Below are positions 3,530 to 51,347 of a stretch of DNA of 64,000 nucleotides, in pieces. The first letter of the stretch is position 1, and each line of letters begins with the position of its first letter. The translations under genes were made by a program, and so were the position numbers. The stretch spans positions 682,001 to 746,000 of the forward strand of contig NC_022357.1 of the NCBI RefSeq assembly GCF_000297055.2. Direction: 5' to 3'. The stretch comes from Sulfuricella denitrificans skB26. Lineage in GTDB: Bacteria > Pseudomonadota > Gammaproteobacteria > Burkholderiales > Sulfuricellaceae. Under the pieces are notes generated by a model. The model made no database searches. It was given only the letters and a program-made list of their open reading frames with translations, and had not been told where the DNA came from.

Positions 3530-3853
3530 AAAAAATACTTGAGCCTCTCAGCGGATTCAGCCATTGGCGGGCCGAGCGGCAGGTCCGACATATTTTTTGG
3601 GATAACCCAGTAAGGATAAGGTGATTTGAGCATATTGCGTTGCTGCTCGCAACTGCTATGGGATAAACAAAATGCGCCATATATATCGGGCGTCGTGCTT
3701 AAGTCGCTCAGTGGCATAGGGTGTGCGAATCCGTTGAGTGCTCTTAAGGTCAGGTGTGTCACAGAAAATTTTAAAACAGCTAGAAAATTAACGCTGCGCG
3801 CAGCAATCCGTTTACCACAGGGAGAGGAAGATTTTTTTACTGAGGCATCCCCA
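3530..3853. other. Gene-free stretch upstream of cphA'
   Basis: An AT-richer 324-bp stretch between the 3' end of the adhesin-E-like gene and cphA'. It presumably holds the cphA' promoter, but I cannot pick a convincing -35/-10 pair. A 78-codon minus frame (3526-3762) ends in an ATGA overlap with the cphA' start. It has no recognisable similarity and may be chance or a leader ORF. Confidence 0.4.
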
Positions 3854-4369
3854 TTATTTCGGATAGGCGACTAATCCGGCTTGCCGGGGGATGTTTGCGC
3901 AGACTATTTCAAACTCTGTTTCTGCCACCGTGTTGTGTGGTATTGCAGTCATCGATGTTTTGTCTTCATCCAGTGAGAGGGAGGTGATGAATTTGCCTTG
4001 GTCGCTGTAAGTTACGCCGTGGAGCAGGCCCTGGGTCCGTTCCGCGCAATTCATGATGCGGCGCATTTTCTTTTCCTTGATCATCCTGCCGGAAGTTTCA
4101 TCTTTGACCGTTGGCTGGAGGTAAACGATTTTTTCCCAAAATTTGACCACCTTGCCGCTACGTTCAAGATTAACCTTGTCGATGGAAAAGGTGATGTTGT
4201 CGGAGGAGGTTGGAATGGTCAGCCATTCTTCCGCCGCATACGCCGGGATGTAGGCAGTGAGCGCTAATAGCACCGCCAGGCGTTTGGCCTTCTGCAATAA
4301 CGGATAGGTATGAAAAGCATGTCTTTCAATTTTATTCAAAGCGGTCATTTCTATGTTGATCCATTTCAA
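3854..4369 (-). CDS. Secreted surface-adhesin-E-like protein
   Basis: A small exported protein of up to 171 residues. Its N-terminus has a basic stretch, a hydrophobic segment ([15 protein letters not shown]) and a likely signal peptidase site after AYA near residue 45. The mature part, opening EEWLTIPTSSDNITFSIDK, with paired cysteines in NCAERTQ and IVCANIP, looks like the surface-adhesin protein E family common as small periplasmic or surface proteins in Betaproteobacteria. The start is uncertain: the first ATG (4369) has no clear ribosome binding site, and an ATG at 4348 would give a more ordinary signal peptide. It shares its strand with cphA' but is 324 bp away. The role is unknown. Confidence 0.6.
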   Translation of the reverse strand: MKWINIEMTALNKIERHAFHTYPLLQKAKRLAVLLALTAYIPAYAAEEWLTIPTSSDNITFSIDKVNLERSGKVVKFWEKIVYLQPTVKDETSGRMIKEKKMRRIMNCAERTQGLLHGVTYSDQGKFITSLSLDEDKTSMTAIPHNTVAETEFEIVCANIPRQAGLVAYPK

Positions 4370-4556
4370 GGACAGAGAGCATGAATTTTTTCCGGAGGAA
4401 AATACTCTATTTGTTTCTCGATAACATGCTATCCCGGTTAAGCTGCCTCGGTCCAGTCTGATGCTGTACTCTTGGTTTCAAGGCAAGTAAACTTCGTCCC
4501 AGCATGGCCCCGGTTAGAGGCCATGGTTCTTCCAGACAAAAATCCAAGGGTTATTT

Positions 4557-6857
4557 GTGAAACACATCAATTCTCTTTCGGCGCCAACCGGAAAAATTTT
4601 GCCCGACACCTGGCGCGCCGAGGTGGAATCTCAGCTGGCCAACGAAGAGGAGATCCTGGCGTGGCTGGAGATCGATCTCGATGTGCGCCTGCATTTTACC
4701 CAGGGCCTGGTGGTCGTGACCAACCGCCGGTTGCTTGCCAAGGGGCTCGAAGAGGCCGCATGGCGAGAGTGGGCTTACCGGAAAGGGCTGACCCTCAAGC
4801 GCCATGATCATGCCGGGGTGGGGAGCCTTGAACTGTACGACGACATGGAGCGCCTCGCCAGCTGGCGTTACACTCTTGGGCATAATGTTGCGACACTGCG
4901 CCTGGTCGAACACTTCGAGCAGCAACTTGCCGGCGTTCTCGCCGGGCACCCCGTCAGCCGCCCGGCAGAGGCGGTCTGCCCCAGCTGCAAGGCGCCACTC
5001 CTGCCGGGTCAGGAAGAGTGCCCCATTTGCACCCGGGAAATCCATGTCCCGCCCTCGACGTGGACGCTGTTCCGTCTGTGGCGCTTTGCCAAACCTTATA
5101 ACGGACAGCTGCTCGCCGGCTTTCTGCTGACGCTGGCGTCTACTGCGGCCACCCTGGTGCCGCCTTACCTGACCATGCCGCTGATGGACAAGGTGCTGAT
5201 CCCTTACCAGAACGGCGCTCCCATCGATTATGGCGTGGTGGCTCTCCTGCTTGCGGGGTTGCTGGGGTCCGCGCTGGTGGCATGGAGCCTGGGCTGGGCG
5301 CGCACCTACATCCTCGCCCTGGTGAGCGAGCGCATCGGGGCCGACCTGCGCACCACCACCTACGAGCACTTGATGCGGCTCTCCCTGGAATATTTCGGCG
5401 GCAAGCGCACCGGCGACCTGATGGCCCGTATCGGCTCCGAGACCGACCGCATCTGCGTGTTCCTTTCGCTGCACTTGCTGGACTTCGCCACCGACGTGCT
5501 GATGATCCTCATGACGGCGGCGATCCTGTTCTCGATCAATCCCTGGCTGGCGCTGGTGACCTTGCTCCCGCTGCCATTCATTGCCTGGATGATCCACGTG
5601 GTGCGCGACAAGTTGCGCACCGGTTTCGAGAAGATCGACCGGGTCTGGTCGGAAGTGACCAACGTGCTGGCCGATACCATACCCGGTATCCGCGTAGTCA
5701 AGGCCTTCGCCCAGGAAAAGCGCGAAGCGGCGCGCTTCCGCGAGGCCAACCAGCACAACCTCGCGGTTAACGACCGGCTGAACAAGATCTGGTCATTGTT
5801 CACACCGACCGTCACCCTGCTGACCGAAATCGGATTGCTTGTCGTGTGGGCATTCGGCATCTGGCTGGTCTCGCGCAACGAGATCACGGTGGGTGTGCTG
5901 GTCGCTTTCCTGGCCTACATCAGCCGTTTCTATACCCGGCTCGATTCGATGAGCCGCATTGTTTCGGTGACGCAGAAGGCGGCCGCCGGCGCAAAACGCA
6001 TTTTCGATATTCTCGACCACGTCTCCAGTGTTCCCGAATCGGCCAACCCGGTTCACCTCGATCAGGTGCAAGGGGGAATCGAGATTCGCAACGCGGGCTT
6101 TCGTTACGGCAACCGGACGGTTATCCATGGAGTCGACCTGACGATCGCTCCCGGTGAGATGATCGGTCTGGTGGGGCACAGCGGGTCGGGCAAGAGCACC
6201 CTGGCCAACCTGATTTGCCGCTTTTACGACGTGTCCGAGGGATCGATCAAGGTCGACGGGGTGGATATCCGCTCCCTCCCTGTATCCGAATATCGGCGCA
6301 ACATCGGCCTGGTACTGCAGGAACCTTTCCTGTTCTTCGGCACCATTGCCGACAATATCGCCTATGGCAAGCCCGATGCCACCCGGGCGGAAATCGTTGC
6401 CGCAGCCCGCGCAGCGCACGCCCACGAGTTCATCCTGCGTTTGCCGCAGGGCTATGATTCCCTGGCCGGCGAGCGCGGCCAAGCCCTGTCTGGCGGCGAG
6501 CGCCAGCGCATTTCCATTGCCCGGGCGCTGCTCATCGATCCGCGTATTCTGATCCTCGATGAAGCCACCTCGTCGGTCGATTCTACGACCGAGAAAGAAA
6601 TCCAGAAAGCCCTGGACAACCTGGTTCAGGGACGAACCACTATTGCCATTGCGCATCGGCTCTCCACCCTGCGTCGCGCCGACCGGCTGGTGGTGCTGGA
6701 TCGCGGTCAGGTGGTCGAGGTGGGAAGCCATGACGAACTGATGGCTAGTGAGGGCGCCTACTTCCGCCTCTATCAGGCGCAAGCGCGCAACGTGGATACC
6801 GATATGGACGACAAGATATGGAATGCCGAGCCCGAAACCAAGGAGGGCGCCGCATGA
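4557..6857 (+). CDS. Cyanophycin-locus ABC exporter with N-terminal zinc ribbon
   Basis: A half-size ABC exporter of 766 residues in the inner membrane. Residues 1-140 form a cytoplasmic domain without an obvious catalytic motif. Next comes a zinc ribbon (CPSCKAPLLPGQEECPIC, about 140-160), then a six-helix type-I exporter domain (about 175-470). The nucleotide-binding domain has Walker A GHSGSGKST, signature LSGGERQR, Walker B ILILDEATSSVD and H-loop AIAHRLST. The start is GTG at 4557, with CAAGGG six bases upstream. The stop overlaps the DUF1854 gene by four bases (ATGA), which implies translational coupling. I recall this ABC/DUF1854 pair as regularly found beside cphA genes. The substrate is unknown; a peptide or cyanophycin-derived compound is a guess from context. 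Confidence 0.85.
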   Translation: MKHINSLSAPTGKILPDTWRAEVESQLANEEEILAWLEIDLDVRLHFTQGLVVVTNRRLLAKGLEEAAWREWAYRKGLTLKRHDHAGVGSLELYDDMERLASWRYTLGHNVATLRLVEHFEQQLAGVLAGHPVSRPAEAVCPSCKAPLLPGQEECPICTREIHVPPSTWTLFRLWRFAKPYNGQLLAGFLLTLASTAATLVPPYLTMPLMDKVLIPYQNGAPIDYGVVALLLAGLLGSALVAWSLGWARTYILALVSERIGADLRTTTYEHLMRLSLEYFGGKRTGDLMARIGSETDRICVFLSLHLLDFATDVLMILMTAAILFSINPWLALVTLLPLPFIAWMIHVVRDKLRTGFEKIDRVWSEVTNVLADTIPGIRVVKAFAQEKREAARFREANQHNLAVNDRLNKIWSLFTPTVTLLTEIGLLVVWAFGIWLVSRNEITVGVLVAFLAYISRFYTRLDSMSRIVSVTQKAAAGAKRIFDILDHVSSVPESANPVHLDQVQGGIEIRNAGFRYGNRTVIHGVDLTIAPGEMIGLVGHSGSGKSTLANLICRFYDVSEGSIKVDGVDIRSLPVSEYRRNIGLVLQEPFLFFGTIADNIAYGKPDATRAEIVAAARAAHAHEFILRLPQGYDSLAGERGQALSGGERQRISIARALLIDPRILILDEATSSVDSTTEKEIQKALDNLVQGRTTIAIAHRLSTLRRADRLVVLDRGQVVEVGSHDELMASEGAYFRLYQAQARNVDTDMDDKIWNAEPETKEGAA

Positions 6858-21793: not shown

Positions 21794-21988
21794 TTAACCT
21801 GCCAATTGCGCTGCAATATCGTCCAAGGCTGTGTGCATCGCCGCCAAAATAAGCGCATCTGCGGCACGCTGGTCAATCTCCGGAATATCCCAATCGAATA
21901 TCGTGCGATATTTTTCAACCAGGCTGCGCATATCCGCAACGATTTTACTGCGGTGCGCATTCAGTTCCAGTTGTTCCATTTTGCTCAT
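21794..21988 (-). CDS. 64-residue protein of unknown function at the head of the N-ATPase operon
   Basis: A soluble protein of 64 residues (MSKMEQLELNAHRSKIVADM...), probably all helical, with an amphipathic middle part (SLVEKYRTIFDWDIPEIDQR) and a C-terminal helix (ADALILAAMHTALDDIAAQ). The ATG at 21988 has AAGAGGAAACACCC upstream, a good ribosome site. That site lies inside the truncated DUF1840 frame, whose stop overlaps the start as ATGA, so the two may be translationally coupled. atpD follows after 34 bp. I recognise no family. It is a candidate accessory or regulatory peptide of the N-ATPase, purely from position. Confidence 0.6.
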   Translation of the reverse strand: MSKMEQLELNAHRSKIVADMRSLVEKYRTIFDWDIPEIDQRAADALILAAMHTALDDIAAQLAG

Positions 21989-22110
21989 GGGTGTTTCCTC
22001 TTTGAACAATAAACGGTTGCGCTGTGCCCCATCATTTTCAGCATAGTCAGCGCGATATCCCCAAATAGGGTGATGTCGGTATAGGCATCGGTTGTAAAGG
22101 TCACTAGCAT
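21985..22110 (-). pseudogene. Truncated DUF1840 gene (41 codons)
   Basis: Translation from 22110 begins MLVTFTTDAYTDITLFGDIA and continues to GHSATV. This matches the first 33 residues of the intact DUF1840 protein at 33905-34201 with four substitutions. It then diverges into VYCSKRKHP and stops. The stop TGA overlaps the ATG of the 64-residue gene. Similarity at DNA level extends about 40 bp upstream of the start codon, so the promoter/leader was duplicated as well. It is either a remnant or a short leader peptide feeding translation into the next gene. Confidence 0.75.
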
Positions 22111-22155
22111 ACAACTCTCTTCGAATGAATAATTTAGTATCTGCTTGTGCTCGCG
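22017..22155 (-). repeat. Duplicated segment, second copy at 34109-34246
   Basis: About 140 bp covering the 5' part of a DUF1840 gene and about 40 bp of its leader. It is clearly alignable with 34109-34246 (for example GCTGTGCCCCATCATTTTCA at 22021 and 34113, and GTATCTGCTTG versus GTATCTACTTG near the far end). Both copies are in the same orientation. Confidence 0.85.
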
Positions 22156-22383
22156 TTCTTAAGCACACCTTCAACGCGTGTTGACGCTTTGCAGCTTTCG
22201 AGAATATGCGTCATTGCGTGCTACTTCTGTTCGGTATCGCACCAACAAGCGCGAAATTAAGCAAAAGCATTTAGGCGTTGTTATGCTCGTGGCGCGCCTG
22301 TGACTTTCTTGCGGCCCGGCCTGGAGATACTGACGCCCACTAAGCCTGACAGGCTGTTGCCAGCATATGCCGATTTATCGAGT

Positions 22384-28383: not shown

Positions 28384-30927
28384 TCACCGCTGCCACAGGA
28401 TATGCGCATCTTCCAGGGGAACCGCCACATCATCGCGGTACGGGATGAGTCGCGCCGTATAGTCCGAAGCCGGCCGGGAGGCAGAAACCCCTGCGCGATA
28501 GGCGTAGCCGTTTATTGCGCCCACCAGTTGCCGCACGCGCTTCATCTCCACTCGCTCCGGCGCAGCACCATTAGCGCCATTGGCATAAAGCTCGACCCGA
28601 ACAGCATCCGGGTCCAGGTCATCGAGATACATTTGAATCTCGAATACATGCTGCTCGCCATCGGTTTCAAGCTTCACTTCACCGAAGCGCAGTGCGGTCC
28701 ATTTTTGGTCCAGCGCGTGCTGCCAATTGACCATATCCACGCCAATGGCGCCCTTATCGGCAGCCCGTGCAAGGTAGGCTGAGGCCGCAGGAATATAATG
28801 CTGATCGGTGTATTCGCACACCGAGTGGTTGGCACAGAAACGCGGCGTCAATCGCGCCATGCTTTCTCGCATCCGGTTCACCCAGGCGCTGGGAATGCCT
28901 TGTTCGTCACGAGCATAGAATTCAGGGATCACCTCGTTCTCGAGCAGGTCATAGAGGGCTTCGGCTTCAATAGCGTCCCAGGCGGGATCATGATCATGTT
29001 CCTGACCATCCCCCAGCGCCCATCCCACCTCCGGTGAGTAGGCCTCGGCCCACCAGCCGTCCAGTTCCGAAAGATTGAGGCCGCCATTGACCAGTACCTT
29101 CATGCCGCTGGTACCACACGCCTCCCAAGGCCGCCGGGGCGTGTTGATCCAGACATCGACCCCCTGCACAAGGGACTCGCTCAAGAGCATGTTGTAGTCG
29201 CTGAGGAAGATTACATGGCGGCGAACCTCGGGCCGCCGGATAAATTGTGTCCACTGCCGAATCAAAGCCTGCCCGGCCAAGTCGGAGGGATGAGCCTTGC
29301 CCGCCATGATGAGCTGTACCGGGCGTTGCGGATTAGCCAGCAGGCGCAGCAACCGCTCCGGATCGTGCAGCAGCAGATTAGGGCGTTTGTAGGCGGCGAA
29401 GCGCCGCGCAAAGCCCAGGGTCAACACATTGGGATCGAAAAGATGGCCCGCCTCCGCCACTGCTTCGGCCGACGCGCCGGAGGAGGCCAACTGTCTGGAC
29501 AAGCGCTCGCGCACGTAGGTCACAAAAGACTGGCTGGCGGCGATGCGAAATTGCCAGAGTCGGGTGTCGGAAACGCGGCGCATGTCCTGCTCCAGGGTTT
29601 CCAACGTCCCCAGCCAGCGGTCCTTGCCACAGGCCTCCGTCCAAAGATTATCTGCTTCTTCCGAATCCCAGGTCGGCATATGGACGCCGTTGGTGACGTG
29701 GCCGATGGGCACCTCCTCCGCCGGCCAGTGCGGAAAAAGAGGGGCGAACAGGTGGCGGCTCACCTGCCCATGTAAGCGGCTTACGCCATTCACCGCGCCA
29801 CTCCCGCGGATTGCCAGATAGGCCATGTTGAAGCTCTCCGACGGGTCATCCGGGTTCTGTCGGCCAAGTGCCATCAGGTCGTGGAGCGTGATACCCAATT
29901 TTCTGGCATAACCACTGAGGTATTGTTCGATCAGGGCCGGGGCAAAACGATCAAATCCGGCGTCTACTGCCGTGTGCGTGGTGAACAGGTTGCCCGCTCT
30001 GGTTACGGCCAGCGCAACCTCAAAAGACTGACCGGTTTCCTCCATGAAATTCCGGGCGCGTTCCAGTACGGCAAAGGCCGCATGACCTTCGTTGAGGTGA
30101 CAGACTTCCGGATCAAGATCGAGCGCACGGAGCAATCGCCATCCGCCGATGCCGAGTACCATCTCTTGTTGCAGCCGCAGCTCCGGTCCGCCCCCGTACA
30201 ACTCGCTGGTGATCCCGCGATGTGCCGGGTAATTTGCGGCGTCATTGCTGTCCAGCAGGTACAGCTTGACGCGACCGACCTGCACCTGCCAGGCGCGCAG
30301 CCATACCGAGTAACCGGGTAACGCAACCTCTAAACGCAACCACTCTCCATCCGGCTTGCGCAGTGGGGTGATCGGCAATTGCCCTGGATCGTTGTACGGA
30401 TAAAGGGCCTGTTGCGCACCGTCCTGATCGATGACCTGGCGGAAATAGCCCTGCTGGTAGAGCAGCCCCACGCCGACCACCGGAATGCCCAGATCGCTGG
30501 CGGCCTTGAGCTGGTCGCCGGCCACATTGCCCAGCCCTCCCGAATAGATCGGGAGGGCTTCGCTCAACATGAATTCCATGCTGAAATAGGCTACGCAGGT
30601 CAGGGGCGCATCGGGATAATGTTGCTGAAACCACGCTTGTGCCTCCGCCGCCTGCTTCTTGGACTGCACCATGGCATCGATCTTGTTGCGGAAGGCCGGA
30701 TCGGCGAGTACGTTCTGGATCTTCTCCCGTGAGACCGTCTGCAGGACATCGCACGGGTGATGCGTCAGCTCCCACAGCACCGGGTCCAGCTGCCGCCACA
30801 CCTCGTCGGTGACATGGCTCCACGACCAGCGCATATCCAGGGCCAGTTCGACCAGGGAATCGAATCCCTCGACGTCCGCAGGGAGAAGGCCGTCTATCGG
30901 GTGACTGCCCCGTGTTTGTTCGCTCAT
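28384..30927 (-). CDS. glgP: Alpha-glucan (glycogen) phosphorylase
   Basis: A PLP-dependent GT35 phosphorylase of 847 residues releasing glucose-1-phosphate from glycogen. It belongs to the bacterial subgroup with the N-terminal DUF3417 segment (LVELALDMRWSWSHVTDEVW). The active site has ACGTSGMKVLVNGGLNLSEL, where Lys of GMKV carries PLP. The glucan region AYFSMEFMLSEALPIYSGGLG and the LNEGHAAF motif are intact. The ATG at 30927 has CAAAGGAGTCGAC upstream, whereas the frame extends to 31119 without one. It heads a likely glgP-ackA-xfp unit and has the palindromic operator at 31127-31150 about 200 bp upstream. Confidence 0.94.
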   Translation of the reverse strand: MSEQTRGSHPIDGLLPADVEGFDSLVELALDMRWSWSHVTDEVWRQLDPVLWELTHHPCDVLQTVSREKIQNVLADPAFRNKIDAMVQSKKQAAEAQAWFQQHYPDAPLTCVAYFSMEFMLSEALPIYSGGLGNVAGDQLKAASDLGIPVVGVGLLYQQGYFRQVIDQDGAQQALYPYNDPGQLPITPLRKPDGEWLRLEVALPGYSVWLRAWQVQVGRVKLYLLDSNDAANYPAHRGITSELYGGGPELRLQQEMVLGIGGWRLLRALDLDPEVCHLNEGHAAFAVLERARNFMEETGQSFEVALAVTRAGNLFTTHTAVDAGFDRFAPALIEQYLSGYARKLGITLHDLMALGRQNPDDPSESFNMAYLAIRGSGAVNGVSRLHGQVSRHLFAPLFPHWPAEEVPIGHVTNGVHMPTWDSEEADNLWTEACGKDRWLGTLETLEQDMRRVSDTRLWQFRIAASQSFVTYVRERLSRQLASSGASAEAVAEAGHLFDPNVLTLGFARRFAAYKRPNLLLHDPERLLRLLANPQRPVQLIMAGKAHPSDLAGQALIRQWTQFIRRPEVRRHVIFLSDYNMLLSESLVQGVDVWINTPRRPWEACGTSGMKVLVNGGLNLSELDGWWAEAYSPEVGWALGDGQEHDHDPAWDAIEAEALYDLLENEVIPEFYARDEQGIPSAWVNRMRESMARLTPRFCANHSVCEYTDQHYIPAASAYLARAADKGAIGVDMVNWQHALDQKWTALRFGEVKLETDGEQHVFEIQMYLDDLDPDAVRVELYANGANGAAPERVEMKRVRQLVGAINGYAYRAGVSASRPASDYTARLIPYRDDVAVPLEDAHILWQR

Positions 30928-31126
30928 GTCGACTCCTTTGTATTCGTTACGGACGCAATCCCTGGCTTCGGTATGGGTGCTGTCAGCGCAGAACCGCCGC
31001 TGGTCTGCGCTTCCTCCAGGAGGTGGCGCAAATAATCCTCTCCCGGTAACCTTCAAACCGCCGATGGGTTGGTCGTTGTCCAGCGCTTTCGATCGCTGAG
31101 AAAATTGTCCATTGCGCACAGGATGT

Positions 31127-31150
31127 TGTATGTACGCTAGCGTACATACA
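31127..31150. promoter_or_regulatory. Operator A: perfect 24-bp palindrome between glgP and the DUF1566 gene
   Basis: TGTATGTACGCT followed by its exact reverse complement. Its central 20 bp (31129-31148) align with the TCYGTGCG-N4-CGCACATA motif that recurs in this window (TATGTACG-CTAG-CGTACATA). It lies 202 bp from the glgP start and 198 bp from the DUF1566 start, so it could serve either. I see no gene in the rest of the 420-bp gap (30928-31347). Confidence 0.65.
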
Positions 31151-32855: not shown

Positions 32856-33050
32856 TCAATGGTAGCCATCACGGTCGCCACGTTCTCCACCGCGATCACG
32901 TTCATGGTCATCGTGATCTTTTCTGTAATCACCATGTTCACGAGAATCTCGGTCTCTACGATAGCCATCCTCTTGGGGTCCGTAAGGAGCAACATAGCAG
33001 CCACTCAAACCAGTCACCATCAAACTTAAGATCAGCAATATGTTTTTCAT
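32856..33050 (-). CDS. Small highly charged lipoprotein
   Basis: A 64-residue protein with a lipoprotein signal peptide (MKNILLILSLMVTGLSGC, lipobox LSGC, Cys18) and a mature part composed almost wholly of Asp, Arg, His, Glu and Gly (EDGYRRDRDSREHGDYRKDH and so on). No family recognised; the tail looks disordered and might bind metal through its many His and Asp residues. A degenerate copy of the recurring operator (33120-33139) lies 70 bp upstream, which groups it with the other small envelope proteins here. Confidence 0.65.
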   Translation of the reverse strand: MKNILLILSLMVTGLSGCYVAPYGPQEDGYRRDRDSREHGDYRKDHDDHERDRGGERGDRDGYH

Positions 33051-33119
33051 GATCTACTTTCATCAGGATTAAAATCGGCAGCCAGACAGGTTTAAGAATA
33101 AGCATAAAATCCGACGCGG

Positions 33120-33139
33120 TCTGTGCGGTAGCCCGCATA
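33120..33139. promoter_or_regulatory. Operator B (degenerate)
   Basis: TCTGTGCG-GTAG-CCCGCATA. The left half is perfect against the consensus TCYGTGCG-N4-CGCACATA; the right half has two mismatches. It is 70 bp upstream of the small charged lipoprotein gene. Confidence 0.5.
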
Positions 33140-33904: not shown

Positions 33905-34201
33905 TTATTTCCACATGACGTTAGATTCTTCCTTGGCTGCGGCAGCAAGAAGATCAATGAGAGGCAGCGCTCGATTTCTCATACTCACCACGGGCTCATC
34001 GTCGTCCTTGTCCTCAACTGGCGGCGAGGCTTTTTCTGCATCGATAGCGGCTGTCAACTGGCTCAAGGCCGCAGGAACATCTGCCGCCAGAATCGCGCCT
34101 GGCACGGTGGCGCTGTGCCCCATCATTTTCAGCATGGCAAGTGCGATATCACCAAACAGGGTGATGTCGGCATGGGCATCGGTCGTAAATGTCACTAACA
34201 T
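33905..34201 (-). CDS. DUF1840 family protein
   Basis: A 98-residue soluble protein. It opens MLVTFTTDAHADITLFGDIA and continues with ALAMLKMMGHSATVPGAI, the conserved core of DUF1840, a small family almost confined to Betaproteobacteria. The second half is a charged linker (EKASPPVEDKDDDEP) and a short C-terminal helix (VSMRNRALPLIDLLAAAAKE). The function is unknown. A truncated duplicate including its leader lies at the head of the N-ATPase operon (21985-22110). TTAGTTCTCCTCG on the plus strand gives a usable CGAGGAGAAC ribosome site. Confidence 0.85.
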   Translation of the reverse strand: MLVTFTTDAHADITLFGDIALAMLKMMGHSATVPGAILAADVPAALSQLTAAIDAEKASPPVEDKDDDEPVVSMRNRALPLIDLLAAAAKEESNVMWK

Positions 34202-34300
34202 TTAGTTCTCCTCGAATAAATGATTCAGTATCTACTTGGGCCACTGCGCACAGCCCATAAACAAACGCTCACAGGCTTTCAATCACCTTCGATGCGACTG

Positions 34301-37801: not shown

Positions 37802-38761
37802 TTACTCGTTGCGATCCCGGCCCCTCTCACGCTCCTGTCCTTGTCCCCGTTTGGGCTCGCGCGTGGCGTCCTTGCCTTGCTGCCTTTCTTCCCGGCCCTG
37901 TGATCTTGGCATCTGCTGCTCGCGCTGATCTGCGCCTGGCTGTGATGACTGCCTGCGGTCTTGAACTTCCTGACGGCCCTGTCGTGGAGAGGCAGGGGCT
38001 GATCTCTGAACGTCTTCACCTCCTCTTTGCGGCGACTGCGAACGCGGGGTGGCTCGATCATCCTGCTGGTGTGGCATAGAACGCTGGACATCCTGCTGCC
38101 TGGAGCCACCTCTATCCTCAGGTCCTCTCTGTCTTTCCTGCTGAACAGGTACTCGTTGCTCTGCCCGTTCCTGATAGTGTTGCCGCACTATGGGATCACG
38201 CGGCTGATAACGGTAGCGCTGCTGTTGAAGCTCCCGCTGCCGCTCCACTTGATGGGGATAGCGATCCCCTGAATACTGCTTCTGGTAGACAGGCAGCGGG
38301 GCTGGCGCCGGGGCAGCGCGACGGTTCCATTTGTCCCAACCGCTTCTACGCTGTTCCCAATCATGACCCCAGTGATTACCCCAGCGTGGCGGCGCATCTG
38401 GTCGCCACCCACGGAAGTACGGGGGTGGCTGGCGGTAGTAGCGCACCGGGATACGCAGGACGTATACCGGCACTGCTTCTGGACCCACCAGCCCCCAGGG
38501 ACCGTTGTACCAGGAGCTGGCGTACCAGTTATCATCCTGGTAAACCCAGTAAAGACTGTCGTAAAAGAAGAAGTTCGCATTCAGTCGTGGCGCGTAGTAA
38601 ACAGGGTAACCTGGCACGCGGACTAGTTGCGGGTATGCCGGCAGGTTGATCCCGATACTTGCGTTGGGGAACCCGATACCGATGCTCACCTGAACCTCAG
38701 CAGAAGCCGCTGAGGACAACAGCAGTCCCAGCACAATAAATACGTGGCGAATTTTCAGCAT
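37802..38761 (-). CDS. Secreted Gln/Arg-rich low-complexity protein
   Basis: A 319-residue exported protein. The ATG at 38761 has AGGAGGTCACAAC upstream and starts a signal peptide (MLKIRHVFIVLGLLLSSAASA). Residues about 22-130 form an aromatic-rich domain (VQVSIGIGFPNASIGINLPAY; YPVYYAPRLNANFFFYDSLY). The rest is a long disordered stretch of Gln, Arg, Pro and Ser with repeated short blocks (QQERQRGP, QQDVQRSMPHQQ). The opening VSIGIGFPNASI resembles VSVSIGQPGFYG of the next gene, so the two may be related. Operator C lies 104 bp upstream. Function unknown; perhaps an envelope or matrix-binding protein. Confidence 0.72.
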   Translation of the reverse strand: MLKIRHVFIVLGLLLSSAASAEVQVSIGIGFPNASIGINLPAYPQLVRVPGYPVYYAPRLNANFFFYDSLYWVYQDDNWYASSWYNGPWGLVGPEAVPVYVLRIPVRYYRQPPPYFRGWRPDAPPRWGNHWGHDWEQRRSGWDKWNRRAAPAPAPLPVYQKQYSGDRYPHQVERQRELQQQRYRYQPRDPIVRQHYQERAEQRVPVQQERQRGPEDRGGSRQQDVQRSMPHQQDDRATPRSQSPQRGGEDVQRSAPASPRQGRQEVQDRRQSSQPGADQREQQMPRSQGREERQQGKDATREPKRGQGQERERGRDRNE

Positions 38762-38864
38762 GTTGTGACCTCCTGTTCGATAAGCAAAATCGGTGTCATG
38801 GTTGCCAACGGAATACGACACCAGCTCTAAGCTTTTACATACTACCTTTGTTTATCCAGATACT

Positions 38865-38884
38865 TCCGTGCGGTATCGCACATA
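38865..38884. promoter_or_regulatory. Operator C
   Basis: TCCGTGCG-GTAT-CGCACATA, one of the best copies of the recurring motif, 104 bp upstream of the Gln/Arg-rich secreted protein gene. Confidence 0.7.
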
Positions 38885-39131: not shown

Positions 39132-39347
39132 TTATTTGTTGATCTCGTGGCCAATGATACCGCCGACCGCCGCGCCGCCCACCGTGCCGACAGTGCTGCC
39201 GCCGGTCAGGACCGAGCCGCCAATAGCGCCGACACCAGCGCCGATTGCGGTATTTTTATCTTGTTGCGACATTCCGGCACAACCCGCCAGACCGAAAACC
39301 AAGATTGCTGCTACTGCATTAACAGCTGATTTTTGTATCGTGCTCAT
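39132..39347 (-). CDS. Glycine-zipper lipoprotein (OsmB-like)
   Basis: A 71-residue outer-membrane-type lipoprotein. The ATG at 39347 (MSTIQKSAVNAVAAILVFGL) has GAGGTATTC upstream and leads to the lipobox AGCAG. The mature part is a single glycine-zipper hairpin (NTAIGAGVGAIGGSVLTGGS; VGGAAVGGIIGHEI), as in OsmB and the SlyB/Gly-zipper_2 families. OsmB in E. coli is osmotically induced; a similar stress role is plausible. Operator D lies 174 bp upstream. Confidence 0.85.
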   Translation of the reverse strand: MSTIQKSAVNAVAAILVFGLAGCAGMSQQDKNTAIGAGVGAIGGSVLTGGSTVGTVGGAAVGGIIGHEINK

Positions 39348-39520
39348 TTTGAATACCTCCATTTTGAAAATCCAGGACCAGGTTAATTCTTGCCTGGCGG
39401 CTTATTCGCCGTAGTGCTTCTTTGCTTCGTTGTTCAGGGATGGCGACGATTACGACCTCTGCCTTGCCTGCATTTATTGTGCATCTTAAGGAGACAAGAT
39501 AGCCCTATTTGAAAGGCGGG

Positions 39521-39540
39521 TCTGTGCGCTGTCGCACATA
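39521..39540. promoter_or_regulatory. Operator D
   Basis: TCTGTGCG-CTGT-CGCACATA, a perfect TGTGCG/CGCACA inverted repeat, 174 bp upstream of the OsmB-like gene. The rest of the gene-free stretch 39363-39758 shows nothing else I can name. Confidence 0.72.
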
Positions 39541-42746: not shown

Positions 42747-45296
42747 TTATTGCCCACTCGGGCGAATGCTACCGTTCAGCCCCGTTTCCGCAAGTTCCAG
42801 GGCCATGTTCAGTGCCTCAATGAACTCATGCACTTTGATCGGCTTGGTGAGATAGCGGAAGAATCCTGCCTCCAGGCCTGTTTCGACATCGCGTGGCATG
42901 GCATTGGCACTGATGGCAAGTACCGGTATATGCGCCGTTAGCGGATCTTCACGCAGGATTTTCAGCACTTGAAAACCGCTTATACCAGGCAGATTGATGT
43001 CCAACAGGATTACGTCCGGGAGATGGGTACGCGCAACCGCGATGCCGAGATTGCCATCGTGAGCGCTCAGCATGCGTATATGGGGGTGCTCCTGGATGAT
43101 TTGCTCGACCAGCATCAGATTGGCCGGATTGTCTTCCACATAGAGCAGGGTGCGAGGCGCCGCGTTGGGCCGAGCGGGTTGCGTAAGTTCTGAGGACAAG
43201 GGATCTCCGGTAGGAAGTTGTGGCATCACGTCCCGGATCAGTTCGATCCAGAATTTGCTGCCTACACCGACGGTGCTTTCCACGCCGATAGTGCCGCCCA
43301 TCAACTCGACCAGTTGCTTGGTGACCACCAGTCCGATGCCTGTTCCTTCCTCGGCGCCGTTCTCTTGCCCGAGACGATTGAACGGCTGGAATAGCTGCAT
43401 CAGCTTTTGCGGAGGCAATCCCTCTCCGCTGTCTTTGATGCTGATGCGGATGCGTTCCGGGGTGCTTGCCGTGAACTCCACCGTTATCGTCCCCTGCTCG
43501 CGGTTGTATTTGATCGCATTCGAAAGCAGATTGATCAGAGCCTGCTTGACTCGGGTTCGGTCGGCATGGGCAAACCAGGTGTGGTCGAAGGGGAGAAAAT
43601 TTAACTGGATGCCGCGTTGCTGCGCCTGCGGTTCAATCAAGGCCTGGCATTCGCGCATCACCTCGATCAGCGACACCGGCTCTCGCGACAACGACAGGTT
43701 GCCAGACTCGATCACTGCGAGGTCAAGGATTTGGTTAATCAGTTCAAGCAGATACCATCCTGCCTTGATAATCTGGTTTAGTCGTACAATCTGGGCGGCC
43801 GTTGGTGGCGGTGAACCGACCTCCAGCAACTGGGCGAAGCCGAGGATGGCATTGAGTGGGGTGCGCAGTTCATGGCTCATGCTGGAAAGGAAAGCTGATT
43901 TGGCGAGGTTGGCTTTTTCCGCCACGAATTTGGCGCTCTCCAATTCGATGTTATTTTCCTGGAGCACCTGATCCAGGCGTTTACGTTCGGTGACGTCGCG
44001 CGCAGCAGCGAACACGCCCTGCAGCTTCCTGTCCCGATCGTAGAAAGTGGTCGCATTGTAGGACACCACCGTTTCTTTCCCGTCCCGGTCTCGTACGGTG
44101 AGCTCGTAGTCGGAGACTTTCTTCTCGCTCAGCACCCGCTTGATGCCCGCTTCGGCCCGCTCCGGATCGGTAAAGTAATTCTTGAACGGCGCGCCTATCA
44201 GCTCGTCGCGCGTGCAACCGGTGAGCGACTCCGTTTGCTTGTTGACGTCGGTGATAATGCCGGACGGATCGGTGGTCATGATCGCATCGATGTTGGATTC
44301 GATCAGCGAGCGCGTGTAGAACTGCTGATCGCGCAGGCGCTGATCGAGCAGCTTCTGCTCAACTTCGATCTGCTTGCGCGCGGTGTTGTCGGTGCCGATC
44401 AACAGGTAGCCGATGATGGCGTCCTGCGCATCGCGCAGGGCCGTGACCGACACCACTGCCGGAAAGCGGCTGCCGTCCTTGCGGATATAGGTCAGCTCGT
44501 AGATGTCCTCGATGCCGCGCGAGGCCTTGAACACCAGGGCCTCAAAGCCCGGTTCGATCTGGGTTTCAAGTTCGGCGCTCAACTCCTTGGCGCGCGCGAT
44601 CACTTCCTGCGGATCGGAAATATCGGCCGGGGTGATCTTGTTCATCACGTCGGCTGCCGTGTAGCCCAGCATGCGCTCGGCCCCGACGTTGAAGATCTGA
44701 ATCACGCCCTTGGCATCGGTGGCGATGCTCGAAAAGTTGGCGCTGTTGAAAATCGCTCTCTGCAAGGCTCCTGCCTTGAGCAACGCTTCTTCCGCCCGCT
44801 TGCGTGCGGTGTTGTCAGTGCCGATCAGCAGGTAGCCGATGATGGTGCCTTGAGCGTCGCGCAGTGCCGTCACCGACACCACCGCCGGGAAGCGGCTGCC
44901 GTCCTTGCGGATGTAGGTCAGCTCATAGATGTCTTCGATGCCGCGCGAGGCCTTGAACACCAAAGCCTCAAAGCCTGGCTCAATCGGAGTTTCAAGTTCG
45001 GCGCTCAACGCCTTGGCGCGCGCGATCACTTCCTGCGGATCGGAAATGTCGGCCGGGGTGATTTTGTTCATCACGTCAGCGGCCGTATAGCCCAGCATGC
45101 GCTCGGCGCCGACATTGAAGATCTGGATCACGCCTTTCTCGTCGGTGGCGATACTCGAGAAGTTGGCGCTGTTGAGAATCGCGTTCTGCAAGGCCCCAGT
45201 TTTAAGCAAGGCCTCCTGGCGTCGAACCTCGGTGATGCCCTTCTCCGCCTCTGCAGGCAGACTGAAAATGGCAAGATCGCGGATTTTTTTGAACAT
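42747..45296 (-). CDS. Cytoplasmic hybrid histidine kinase with duplicated PAS domains
   Basis: An 849-residue soluble sensor kinase. PAS1 (about 34-166) and PAS2 (176-308) are near-identical copies; PAS3 covers about 325-440. The dimerisation/phosphoacceptor domain has His475 (SSMSHELRTPLNAILGF). The ATPase domain has the N box LLSNAIKYNRE, DSGEGLPP and GTGIGLVV. A C-terminal receiver (715-835) has acceptor Asp766 (DVILLDINLPG) and Lys818. The PAC motifs TDNTARK are in PAS1 and PAS2. With no membrane segment, it probably senses redox, a gas or a small molecule in the cytoplasm. Operator E lies 183 bp upstream; the response regulator gene follows. Confidence 0.93.
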   Translation of the reverse strand: MFKKIRDLAIFSLPAEAEKGITEVRRQEALLKTGALQNAILNSANFSSIATDEKGVIQIFNVGAERMLGYTAADVMNKITPADISDPQEVIARAKALSAELETPIEPGFEALVFKASRGIEDIYELTYIRKDGSRFPAVVSVTALRDAQGTIIGYLLIGTDNTARKRAEEALLKAGALQRAIFNSANFSSIATDAKGVIQIFNVGAERMLGYTAADVMNKITPADISDPQEVIARAKELSAELETQIEPGFEALVFKASRGIEDIYELTYIRKDGSRFPAVVSVTALRDAQDAIIGYLLIGTDNTARKQIEVEQKLLDQRLRDQQFYTRSLIESNIDAIMTTDPSGIITDVNKQTESLTGCTRDELIGAPFKNYFTDPERAEAGIKRVLSEKKVSDYELTVRDRDGKETVVSYNATTFYDRDRKLQGVFAAARDVTERKRLDQVLQENNIELESAKFVAEKANLAKSAFLSSMSHELRTPLNAILGFAQLLEVGSPPPTAAQIVRLNQIIKAGWYLLELINQILDLAVIESGNLSLSREPVSLIEVMRECQALIEPQAQQRGIQLNFLPFDHTWFAHADRTRVKQALINLLSNAIKYNREQGTITVEFTASTPERIRISIKDSGEGLPPQKLMQLFQPFNRLGQENGAEEGTGIGLVVTKQLVELMGGTIGVESTVGVGSKFWIELIRDVMPQLPTGDPLSSELTQPARPNAAPRTLLYVEDNPANLMLVEQIIQEHPHIRMLSAHDGNLGIAVARTHLPDVILLDINLPGISGFQVLKILREDPLTAHIPVLAISANAMPRDVETGLEAGFFRYLTKPIKVHEFIEALNMALELAETGLNGSIRPSGQ
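44373..45197 (-). repeat. Tandem duplication inside the kinase gene (PAS1/PAS2)
   Basis: Residues 34-166 and 176-308 of the kinase differ at only a handful of positions, at an offset of exactly 142 codons (426 bp). The DNA is also nearly identical (for example the blocks around 44640 and 45060). This is a recent in-frame duplication or one kept uniform by gene conversion. Confidence 0.92.
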
Positions 45297-45478
45297 GAAT
45301 GACCTTTATTAAATCGCAAAATAAACTACTGGCTCGTGCGGTTGAAGCTGCGATCAGCGCCTCATCTGCTTATATCCACAATACCGCTAAAAAATAATCT
45401 GTTTTTGCCTGTGGCCATGGGTCCCTGAAATGGACTTTTAGCAGCTTCATTCCAGCATAACGATTAATCCAGTTGGTC

Positions 45479-45498
45479 TCCGTGCGTTAGCACACATA
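45479..45498. promoter_or_regulatory. Operator E
   Basis: TCCGTGCG-TTAG-CACACATA, with one mismatch in the right half. It lies 183 bp upstream of the hybrid kinase start and 42 bp downstream of the Crp/Fnr-type gene's stop codon. Confidence 0.62.
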
Positions 45499-45539: not shown

Positions 45540-46283
45540 TTAATCGTGACTAGCTGAGGGATCTTGGCGATTACGACCATCGCACAGCAGGCGATGGAAT
45601 TCTTTCTTGACTACGTTGTAGCATTCACAAGTGTGGGACTCCAGCCCCGACCGATCAAGCACGGTGATGTGACCCCGGCGGTAACTAATCAAACCCGTGC
45701 GCTGCAAATTCCCGGCGGTTTCCGTGATGCCTTCGCGGCGCACGCCGAGCATGCTGGCAATCAGTTCCTGCGTCATGGTCAATTCGTTCGAGGGCAATCG
45801 ATCAAGGGTCAGCAGCAGCCAGCGACACAGTTGCTGCTCCACCGAATGATGCCGATTGCAGACCGCAGTCTGGGATATCTGGGTAATCAATGCCTGGGTG
45901 TAACGCAGCATCAGATGCATCATCGGCCCAGCGCGATTGAATTCCTCCATCAGCACGCGCGCCTTGAGACGGTAGCCATAACCACCGGTCTGAACGATGG
46001 CCCGGCTGGGCGTGGTATTGCCACCCATGAAGAGTGAAATTCCGAGGACGCCCTCATTGCCCACCCCCGCGATTTCGGACGATGCGCCGTTTTCCATGAC
46101 GTAGTGCAGGGACACGATTGCGGTCGTCGGGAAATAGACGTGCTGCAACTGGCCGCCGGATTCACAAAGAACATCGCCCAGTGGCATCGCGACCAGTTCC
46201 AGCTGGGGAGCGATGTGCTCGAATTCAGCCGTGGGCAAGGCGGCGAGAAGATGATTTAGATTGGGGTTCTGCGAGGTTTCCAT
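45540..46283 (-). CDS. Crp/Fnr-family transcriptional regulator
   Basis: A 247-residue regulator with an N-terminal cyclic-nucleotide-binding-like beta-barrel (PLGDVLCESGGQLQHVYFPT; EIAGVGNEGVLGISLFMGG), a long dimer helix (MHLMLRYTQALITQISQTAV, then CNRHHSVEQQLCRWLL) and a C-terminal winged helix (ELTMTQELIASMLGVRREGI, TETAGNLQRTGLISYRRGHI). It lacks the FNR iron-sulphur cysteine set and the strict cAMP residues. Several neighbouring operator motifs make it the best local candidate for their binding protein, though that link is inference. A broken paralogue is at 49900-50215. Confidence 0.9.
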   Translation of the reverse strand: METSQNPNLNHLLAALPTAEFEHIAPQLELVAMPLGDVLCESGGQLQHVYFPTTAIVSLHYVMENGASSEIAGVGNEGVLGISLFMGGNTTPSRAIVQTGGYGYRLKARVLMEEFNRAGPMMHLMLRYTQALITQISQTAVCNRHHSVEQQLCRWLLLTLDRLPSNELTMTQELIASMLGVRREGITETAGNLQRTGLISYRRGHITVLDRSGLESHTCECYNVVKKEFHRLLCDGRNRQDPSASHD

Positions 46284-47988: not shown

Positions 47989-48303
47989 TTACTTGACCCG
48001 CATGTCGTTTTTGACCGACGTTACGCCCTTGATGCTGCGTGCCACCTCGACTGCCTTGCTCGCTGCGGTCTGCGAACTCACGAAGCCGCTCAATTGAACC
48101 ACGCCTTTGAAAGTCTCAACATTGATTTCAGCGGATTTCAAAGATGGCTCATTGAATATGGCAGCCTTCACCTTGGTGGTGATGACGCTGTCGTCGATGT
48201 ACTCGCCAGTCCCTTCCTTCTGCGATGTGGATGCGCAACCCACGACGGACACCAACGCAATGGCCAGGAAAAATGCGGAAAGAAATTTGCTAAGTTGTTT
48301 CAT
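47989..48303 (-). CDS. BON-domain lipoprotein (OsmY-like)
   Basis: A 104-residue periplasmic lipoprotein with one BON domain. The ATG at 48303 (MKQLSKFLSAFFLAIALVSV) has GGGAGAATTTAATC upstream and leads to the lipobox VVGCAS. The BON domain begins DDSVITTKVKAAIFNEPSLK and has the conserved GVVQLSGFVSSQTAASKAVE. BON proteins such as OsmY bind membranes and are induced by osmotic or stationary stress. Operator F lies 133 bp upstream. Confidence 0.9.
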   Translation of the reverse strand: MKQLSKFLSAFFLAIALVSVVGCASTSQKEGTGEYIDDSVITTKVKAAIFNEPSLKSAEINVETFKGVVQLSGFVSSQTAASKAVEVARSIKGVTSVKNDMRVK

Positions 48304-48435
48304 GATTAAATTCTCCCAAAAAAATACGAAAATAAAACTCAAAAGTTACTTGTGATCGAAGGGCTATCTGCAGCTGCCTGTGGGCCTATCAATCTCATTC
48401 AAGCAGTTTAATGATGCTCCTGAAGCCGGGAGCCG

Positions 48436-48455
48436 TCTGTGCGGTGTCGCACATA
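48436..48455. promoter_or_regulatory. Operator F
   Basis: TCTGTGCG-GTGT-CGCACATA, a perfect TGTGCG/CGCACA inverted repeat, 133 bp upstream of the BON lipoprotein gene. Confidence 0.72.
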
Positions 48456-49346: not shown

Positions 49347-49811
49347 TCAGTAACGAGATACGTGGTCGTTCTCGATACGGACACGATCCCCAACACGCAA
49401 GTCGCTAATGCTTGGCTGTGCCACGGTTTGAACCCCACCGTTGTCAAGCCGTACCCGTATAAGGTAGGCATCTTGCGGTTTATTACTCTTTTCGATCTGG
49501 TGGCCTGCCATGGCCCCACCCACCACACCGGCCACGGTCGCGAGGTCCTTGCCTGTGCCGCCACCGACTTGATGTCCGAGTACGCCGCCTACGACGCCGC
49601 CAATGACAGCGCCAGCACCTATCCCGCTACCGCCTATTCCGCCGTCGCTCTCGCGAGTGATTTCAATCGCGTCAATCACGCCATAAGAAGCGCGGGAATA
49701 GGATGACGAGGATGACGAAGAAGACATGGGACGAGTATCGGTACTCGCGCAACCGCTCATCAGGGCCGCTACAGTGAGAAAAGTTGCGATAACTATTTTG
49801 GGCGTTTTCAT
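49347..49811 (-). CDS. Glycine-zipper 2TM lipoprotein (SlyB/YmgG-like)
   Basis: A 154-residue lipoprotein (lipobox MSGCAS, Cys21). After a Ser-rich linker (MSSSSSSSSYSRASYG) comes a glycine-zipper hairpin (GIGAGAVIGGVVGGVLGHQV; VAGVVGGAMAGHQIE). The C-terminal small beta domain has YLIRVRLDNGGVQTVAQP and LRVGDRVRIENDHVSRY, typical of SlyB/PcpA-like proteins. TCCAGGAGGTCTTATT lies upstream of the ATG. Operator G is only 53 bp upstream, the shortest spacing in the set. Confidence 0.9.
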   Translation of the reverse strand: MKTPKIVIATFLTVAALMSGCASTDTRPMSSSSSSSSYSRASYGVIDAIEITRESDGGIGGSGIGAGAVIGGVVGGVLGHQVGGGTGKDLATVAGVVGGAMAGHQIEKSNKPQDAYLIRVRLDNGGVQTVAQPSISDLRVGDRVRIENDHVSRY

Positions 49812-49863: not shown

Positions 49864-49883
49864 TCCGTGCGGTAGCGCACATA
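49864..49883. promoter_or_regulatory. Operator G
   Basis: TCCGTGCG-GTAG-CGCACATA, 53 bp upstream of the glycine-zipper lipoprotein gene and 17 bp before the remnant of a Crp/Fnr gene on the opposite strand. Confidence 0.72.
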
Positions 49884-49899: not shown

Positions 49900-50215
49900 A
49901 TGCTGTATTTTGGCAACCAGTCCCAAATCGTCGTCATTATGGAGGATGGCGCATCAGCCGAATTCGCCGGGGTCGGCAACGAGGGCGTGATCGGTGTCGC
50001 CCTCAGCACGGGCGGTGAAACCATGCTCAATCTGGCCATGGTGCGGTGCGCGGGCTATCCTGTCGGCTAAGATCTCAATTGCTGTAGGAGGCTTCAATCG
50101 TGGCGGGGGGCGCCGTTCCTGCGCTTTGCAACATTTGTTGCTGCGTTACACCCAGGCATTAATTACCCATATATCCCAGATCGCAGTCTGCAATCGACAC
50201 CATTCGGTGGAGCAG
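49900..50215 (+). pseudogene. Broken Crp/Fnr-family regulator
   Basis: The plus strand encodes fragments of a regulator closely similar to the intact one at 45540-46283. The first frame (49900-50070) reads IMEDGASAEFAGVGNEGVIG, matching VMENGASSEIAGVGNEGVLG of the intact protein, then stops. After a disrupted stretch a second frame (about 50125-50215) reads LLLRYTQALITHISQIAVCN followed by RHHSVEQQ, matching its dimer helix. The N-terminal part and the whole DNA-binding domain are missing, so it cannot make a regulator. Confidence 0.85.
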
Positions 50216-50283
50216 CAAGAGTCGCAAGCGACTCGAGCAGACCCTTGCTTTCGCCGGGTGTTTTTTCGGCCATGATGAAGCGA

Positions 50284-51086: not shown

Positions 51087-51233
51087 TCACAGGCGTCGAC
51101 CTTGAATTACACGCAGCAATATCACCACGATCGCGATGACCAGGAGAATGTGTATGAATCCGCCCATGGTGTAGGAGGAGACCAAACCCAGCAGCCACAG
51201 GATGATCAGGATAAACGCAATAGTTCCGAGCAT
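51087..51233 (-). CDS. lmo0937-type small membrane protein
   Basis: A 48-residue membrane protein with sequence MLGTIAFILIILWLLGLVSS and on through YTMGGFIHILLVIAIVVILL to RVIQGRRL. This matches the lmo0937 family (DUF5670), tiny proteins with two helices and an ending in basic residues. TGAGGAGTAACGAAA upstream of the ATG supports the start. Members are widespread beside stress genes, but their role is unknown. Operator H lies 95 bp upstream. Confidence 0.88.
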   Translation of the reverse strand: MLGTIAFILIILWLLGLVSSYTMGGFIHILLVIAIVVILLRVIQGRRL

Positions 51234-51327
51234 TTTCGTTACTCCTCAGTAAGACGGGCAGATATTGTCTTTGTATCTACGAGCGTCATAGATTGTTTAA
51301 CAATGATCTCCTGATTTGAAAAATTAC

Positions 51328-51347
51328 TCTGTACGCTAGCGCACTTA
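51328..51347. promoter_or_regulatory. Operator H
   Basis: TCTGTACG-CTAG-CGCACTTA, with two mismatches to the consensus, 95 bp upstream of the lmo0937-type gene. It shares the central GTACGCTAGCG with the perfect palindrome at 31127-31150. Confidence 0.6.

Follow-up and report, generated by a model that had tools for sequence, protein, structure and literature searches.

CRP of Escherichia coli carries a recognition helix of the form R-E-x3-R, recognises the half-site TGTGA and can act as a class II activator from sites centred at -41.5, which is the class II position of FNR as well. The Arg and Glu of this helix read the TGTG half-site. FNR and DNR proteins of the E. coli type have a helix of the form E-x-x-S-R and bind TTGAT-N4-ATCAA. 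Fnr proteins of the Bacillus type are marked by an oxygen-labile [4Fe-4S] cluster that controls DNA binding. In Fnr of Bacillus subtilis, residues C227, C230 and C235 together with Asp141 hold the cluster (PMC3520743), and a further article likewise places the cluster cysteines of Bacillus Fnr at the C-terminus (PMC12937710). RedB of Rhodobacter capsulatus is like the protein described below in coming from a formerly uncharacterised Crp/Fnr subgroup with a regulon, and its reported motif is a non-palindromic 12-mer, unlike the palindrome found in this study (PMC9603854).

The window analysed here, a stretch of 64,000 nucleotides from Sulfuricella denitrificans skB26, encodes a Crp/Fnr-family regulator of 247 amino acids, termed Crp-A, at positions 45540..46283. 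The first-pass annotation had these coordinates right; the strand, which it had not given, is the minus strand. Pfam recognises a Crp-type helix-turn-helix (HTH) at the C-terminus (HTH_Crp_2, PF13545, 54.9 bits against a cut-off of 27), while the N-terminal cNMP_binding domain scores 25.3 bits, just below its cut-off of 27.5. The AF2 model (mean pLDDT 94.7) has a long dimerisation helix at residues 120-145 and a C-terminal helix at 220-237, and the top Foldseek matches of this model were whole chains of CRP, GlxR, FNR and NtcA, with E values of about 1e-12. Searches for solved structures gave no close match: in the PDB, the top hit of the single sequence covers the HTH only (E 9.2e-6), and a profile search reached GlxR and NtcA structures at 1e-16 to 1e-15. 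The Crp-type HTH, together with the cNMP-like beta domain and the long dimerisation helix, places Crp-A in the Crp/Fnr superfamily. A literature search returned no study of its group, of its motif or of its Cys/His set, nor any measured start site, DNA binding or metal content for the group, although misses are likely, since the slash in "Crp/Fnr" defeats term matching.

The recognition helix of Crp-A, GVRREGITETAG, comprises residues 180-191 and is encoded at 45711..45746 (minus strand, from the translation). In the first 57 rows of homologue alignment A1, R183 is present in all 57 and E184 in 56; these two align with R180 and E181 of E. coli CRP. Residues of the cNMP-like pocket are also well conserved in the 57 A-type rows (E77 in 54, R94 in 44). 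With CRP, Crp-A shares the fold, the R-E pair that opens the recognition helix, the spacing of the TGTG...CACA half-sites and, by prediction, the class II position at -41.5. It departs from the cAMP-activated CRP in that Glu occupies the Arg185 position, in its weak cNMP domain, and in its half-site, TGTGCG, which has C-G after TGTG where CRP has A-T. The replacement by Glu of the Arg that makes the third contact in CRP agrees with the relaxed fourth base of the half-site. From E. coli-type FNR/DNR, with which it shares the superfamily and, by prediction, class II activation, Crp-A differs in its recognition helix, which is not E-x-x-S-R, in its site, which is not TTGAT-N4-ATCAA, and in having no N-terminal cysteine set.

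The palindrome refined from 170 sites in 80 homologous loci is a 20-bp sequence, T[AC]TGTGCGNTANCGCACA[TG]A. G2, T3 and G6 of the half-site are conserved at 95-99%, and G4 is relaxed to 73%. The symmetric inverted repeat proposed earlier is real, and its half-site spacing, TGT-N10-ACA, is that of CRP. With up to three mismatches allowed, the window contains 10 matches against 3.56 expected, a number reached by none of 100 shuffles, while genome-wide the excess at this stringency is weak (127 matches against 91 for the reversed pattern). With up to two mismatches, the genome has 13 sites, and nine of them lie within 29 kb (contig 1, 704228-733345), inside the window (binomial p about 3e-16); the clustering is a property of the better-matching sites. 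In the homologous loci, a limit of one mismatch yields 67 sites in 45 of the 80, whereas 20 control palindromes with permuted half-sites yield 0-2 apiece. When the 80 loci were scanned with a position weight matrix at 18 bits, 213 sites emerged, and the reversed sequences gave none; the matrix was trained on sites from the loci that it scored, so that these counts are not independent, whereas the permuted-palindrome test is matrix-free. Nine strong sites are found in the window with this matrix. The exact strict palindrome, TGTRCGNTANCGYACA, was rejected as a genome-wide marker, because it occurs in only 22 of 398 genomes, with one match each, and serves only for a two-by-two test.

The sites stand at a fixed distance from predicted promoters. 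For 51 of 163 one-sided sites, oriented by their target gene, the first base of a -10 hexamer of the form TANNNT lies at a distance of exactly 29 bp from the site centre, compared with a mean of 2.0 and a maximum of 7 sites at other positions. The peak persists after the removal of similar segments (43/147, background 1.9) and is seen both at non-Crp targets (37/100, background 1.1) and, more weakly, at Crp targets (10/52, background 0.9). Given that the hexamer starts at 29 bp and that its first T lies at -12, the site centre falls at -41.5, the class II position, on promoters predicted from the sequence. The -10 profile has no peak at the class I spacing (-61.5). Crp-A genes with an upstream site follow the same pattern, since 43 of 85 have a hexamer at 28-30 bp, 22 of these being an exact TANNNT at 29, and positive autoregulation of Crp-A is therefore likely in relatives. 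The matrix scan detected no site upstream of the crp gene of the window itself.

In the window, hexamers with at least 4/6 matches occur 27-30 bp leftward of eight of the nine sites and rightward of one, and the targets likely run leftward. Operator E of the first-pass annotation (45481-45496) lies 43 bases beyond the crp stop; the corresponding site E spans 45479..45498 and has a matrix score of 25.2. Its -10 element, TATGCT (45454..45459, minus strand), is 29 bp from the site centre, which makes it a predicted class II site of a PAS hybrid histidine kinase encoded at 42747..45296 on the minus strand (Pfam PAS, HisKA, HATPase_c and Response_reg). This places the predicted transcription start near 45447, 151 bases ahead of the kinase ATG. 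Downstream of the gene, 13 loci keep the order of crp gene, site and target; in 11 of them a hexamer with at least 4/6 matches stands at 29 or 30 bp, and 12 of the 13 target ORFs pass a crude PAS string test. The kinase gene also contains a duplicated PAS module (44363-44662 and 44789-45088, 89% identical DNA).

To the right of the crp gene, a site at 48436..48455 (27.1) with the hexamer CATCAT (48411-48416) precedes a BON protein gene (47989-48342, minus), and one at 51328..51347 (25.2) with GATCAT (51303-51308) precedes a gene for a small DUF5670 protein (51087-51233, minus). Between them, the site at 49864..49883 (27.9) lies between a gene for a glycine-zipper protein (49347-49811, minus) and the plus-strand relic of a second Crp gene; it has no clear leftward -10 (3/6), and rightward TGTATT matches 4/6 at 30 bp. 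On the other side, the site at 39521..39540 (28.3), with TATCTT at 39496-39501, is assigned to a second glycine-zipper protein gene (39132-39362, minus), and that at 38865..38884 (26.7), with TAGTAT at 38839-38844, 30 bp from the centre, to an ORF with no Pfam match (37802-38821, minus). A site at 33120..33139 (19.0) with TATTCT (33095-33100) faces a small lipoprotein-like ORF (32856-33050, minus). The glucan phosphorylase gene (28384-31119, minus) has a site at 31129..31148 (27.5) with GACAAT at 31104-31109; the ORF start at 31119 is upstream of the predicted transcription start at about 31097, so the true start would be internal. The weakest site (22226..22245, 18.7) has CATATT leftward at 22203-22208, 27 bp away, and its target ORF is uncertain. 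A 138-nt repeat, 84% identical, is present at 22013-22150 and 34104-34241 of the window.

The predicted targets in the window therefore include the PAS hybrid kinase, the glucan phosphorylase, the BON, DUF5670 and two glycine-zipper proteins and the ORF without a Pfam match. Control of a hybrid kinase, of glycogen breakdown and of envelope proteins had been suggested before; sites and -10 elements do stand at such genes, and the regulon looks local rather than global. A Pfam scan was made of 111 target ORFs, namely 109 of the 145 non-Crp target ORFs and two hand-picked ORFs of the window (39135-39362 and 51090-51233); the 36 left out comprise 27 of fewer than 100 aa and nine longer ones, of which one has 2845 aa and two are nearly identical to ORFs of locus L112. 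The most frequent families were PAS (14), ice-binding-like (12), HATPase (10), response-regulator (10), DUF4398 (10), BON (6), glycine zipper (5), OmpA (4) and DUF883 (4), which reads as an envelope and general-stress set. The 12 ice-binding-like targets (Ice_binding, PF11999), noted in loci L103, L105, L108 and L109, suggest cold or surface adaptation in some relatives.

Motif and protein occur together in relatives. The motif is found beside the Crp gene in 25 of 30 loci, that of the window included, with 36 sites compared with one for the reversed pattern, and in the 80 homologous loci 60 of the 170 sites sit 100-400 bp upstream of a Crp gene and none inside it. Homologues were grouped by identity to the window protein, provided that 400 or more bases of sequence upstream were available and that the aligned length was at least 195, with identical cores counted once; an upstream site was present in 88/130 at 62% identity or more, 8/36 at 47-62%, 19/48 at 36-47% and 0/7 below 36%. 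The 36-47% bin is mixed: a site was found in none of its 16 other-class homologues and in 19 of the remaining 32, which are mostly of the type of Crp-B, a tandem paralogue discussed below. The 20 loci from the same phylum and another class, probably Alphaproteobacteria, have other recognition helices and no site, and they follow one another in the order in which a FastTree tree was printed.

The first-pass annotation had asked whether subfamily and motif co-occur across genomes, and two genome samples gave a positive answer. In a class-level sample of 369 genomes, 38 of the 44 that encode the protein contain a looser exact pattern, compared with 93 of the 325 that do not encode it (Fisher p 1.5e-13); this pattern is noisy in GC-rich genomes, with 124 matches against 87 for the reversed control in the 44 protein-bearing genomes. 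In a phylum-level sample of 398 genomes, the strict pattern was present in 8 of 24 genomes with the protein and in 14 of 374 without it (Fisher p 1e-5); genome G560, whose 63% match spans residues 72-234 only, was not counted among the 24. Related loci share ancestry, and these p-values overstate independence.

Genomes with the motif and without the subfamily, which would speak against the assignment, are to a small extent found, as up to six have plausible sites and no close homologue. All 14 exceptions of the phylum sample and three genomes of the class sample were followed up; the assemblies are fragmented, with 50 to 360 contigs in the five tested. Three exceptions with plausible non-coding sites and no close homologue (G396, G433 and G562) belong to one family, other members of which carry Crp-A, and another genome with a plausible non-coding site (G656) has a sole homologue of 30% identity. 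Two genomes of the class sample, G116 and G254, likewise carry plausible sites and no close homologue, while in G132 the site is inside an ORF. The other phylum-sample exceptions either do encode a homologue of 55-59% identity (G605 and G643), have the site within a long ORF (G398, G550, G538, G377 and G698) or have sites that score below 15 with the matrix (G541, G467 and G458). In two genomes with no close Crp-A (loci L287 and L285), the palindrome lies upstream of an entericidin-like small lipoprotein ORF, with a weak -10-like hexamer (3/6) at 29 bp.

A simple code, by which the same recognition helix implies the same site, was rejected, as the seven homologues that carry the helix GVRREGVTEAAG at less than 62% identity all lack a site in their 1.5-2 kb flanks. 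Of five plasmid stretches with a homologue, three lack a strong site, pKLC102 among them, and a fourth has its strong sites more than 8 kb away from the gene. These results indicate that a local site is not predictable from the recognition helix by itself. On plasmids of Acidovorax, Pseudomonas aeruginosa (pKLC102) and Paraburkholderia (L298, L299 and L301), the Crp-A homologue lies near a glucoamylase/GH94-type gene of about 8.5 kb.

Crp-A is the only intact Crp/Fnr gene found in the window, as had been stated earlier; the second copy, at about 49900..50275 on the plus strand, is a relic in two frames without an HTH. A PF13545 search of the whole genome revealed four other full-length Crp/Fnr proteins, all encoded outside the window and with FNR/DNR-type helices, and no further protein of the R-R-E type; the genome has two additional places with a cNMP domain (2862503 and 509131) outside this set. 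In the related locus L098, with a Crp protein 96% identical to Crp-A, an intact second copy occupies the place of the relic (4816-5799), and a gene for Crp-B lies at 3637-4428. Crp-B is a tandem paralogue of 36-45% identity, with a helix that is mostly GVRR[VAS]G; it is present in many relatives, often adjacent to Crp-A. Nothing at that place in the window corresponds to the stretch 3412-5193 of L098, which comprises the Crp-B gene and the HTH-encoding half of the second copy, and a search of the S. denitrificans genome with Crp-B of L098 retrieved just Crp-A and one distant FNR/DNR-type protein. Of three such Crp genes, two were apparently lost from this genome.

Co-occurrence, adjacency to the gene, the half-site spacing of CRP and the -41.5 position all support Crp-A as the candidate regulator of the palindromes, as first proposed, and we give a probability of roughly 0.7 to the reading that Crp-A binds the palindrome and activates in a class II manner. 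Crp-A would then be a homodimeric Crp/Fnr-type activator that, when its signal is present, binds the palindrome centred at -41.5 and, by class II contact with RNA polymerase, turns on local promoters of the PAS hybrid kinase, the glucan phosphorylase, the BON and glycine-zipper proteins and small proteins of the membrane or envelope; a site at its own promoter would be a further feature in most close relatives. The sites, earlier termed "operators", look like activator sites rather than repressor operators, given their fixed -41.5 position. Ligand-free Crp-A could still use the palindromes as repressor operators, given that they overlap the -35 region, where a repressor could sit; with the -10 spacing fixed at 29 bp, as a class II activator needs, rather than spread over the promoter, this is very unlikely.

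Part of the same evidence could fit other proteins. A site upstream of Crp genes suits a target as well as an autoregulator, and this, with the genomes that have plausible sites and no close homologue, would be expected if an unrelated regulator of the island bound the palindrome and the Crp protein were merely one of its targets. Such a regulator is nevertheless improbable, as the half-site spacing and the -41.5 position suit a Crp/Fnr dimer and no DNA-binding domain was found among 20 other island proteins in a scan that covered genes of 31-53 kb and, outside this range, the phosphorylase and the ORF at 21797-22174. The chance that Crp-B is the main binder and Crp-A only a target is slim. 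Sites do occur upstream of Crp-B-type genes, the A and B genes are often neighbours, and Crp-B could bind the same sites in relatives; against its being the main binder, the genome studied here has nine strong sites and no Crp-B was found in it, and the Glu at the CRP E181 position is kept in only four of the 32 proteins of the 36-47% bin that remain when other-class loci are excluded.

For Crp-A as the activator, a candidate sensor is also apparent. The first-pass annotation had noted the lack of the FNR cysteine set, which holds for the N-terminal set of E. coli FNR, as the first 60 residues of Crp-A contain a single cysteine, C40; a different and nearly invariant Cys/His set is, however, present and is a candidate sensor site. 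It consists of C142 and H146 (C-x3-H, 45846..45860, minus strand) at the end of the dimerisation helix, in the hinge, and C219 and C221 (C-E-C, 45621..45629, minus strand) at the start of the C-terminal helix, all candidate metal or Fe-S ligands. The four are present together in 220 of 227 homologues, including other-class ones with other recognition helices; in the other seven, at least three of the four have been lost together, in two events on the FastTree tree. CRP is not known to carry such a Cys3His set.

This pattern points to a possible Cys3His site for a metal or an Fe-S cluster, placed between the hinge and the DNA-binding domain. By analogy with Bacillus Fnr, it would bind Zn or an Fe-S cluster, and would probably set the activity of Crp-A by tying the dimerisation helix to the DNA-binding domain. 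Like the ligands of B. subtilis and B. cereus Fnr, the candidate ligands of Crp-A are divided among two regions, the hinge (about residue 141-146) and the C-terminus (PMC3520743; PMC12937710). Crp-A does not have the three C-terminal cysteines and hinge Asp of the Bacillus type; it has C-x3-H in the hinge and C-x-C, a comparison drawn from the published description of the Bacillus protein. That the Cys3His site is the sensor of Crp-A has about an even chance. The four residues may instead form a purely structural Zn site, with the signal bound in the cNMP-like pocket, where E77 and R94 are conserved; structural Zn sites are likewise conserved all-or-none, while the cNMP_binding score falls below its cut-off and the same two regions hold the sensing cluster in Bacillus Fnr (PMC3520743). 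We regard this as possible, though on the doubtful side.

For a Crp/Fnr group on which the literature search returned no study, these results supply a candidate regulator together with its 20-bp recognition site, the geometry of its promoters and a candidate sensor, the last being the most novel part of the finding. They also link widespread stress and envelope families annotated as of unknown function, such as BON, DUF883, glycine-zipper, DUF5670 and ice-binding-like proteins. Tentatively, and at somewhat less than even odds, Crp-A may represent a branch of the Crp/Fnr superfamily that is large in Proteobacteria, so far unstudied, and equipped with a new type of sensor, a Cys3His metal or Fe-S clamp from the hinge to the DNA-binding domain, and the sub-branch described here would act as a class II activator dedicated to self-contained islands of stress and envelope genes, running a local programme gated by redox state or metal.
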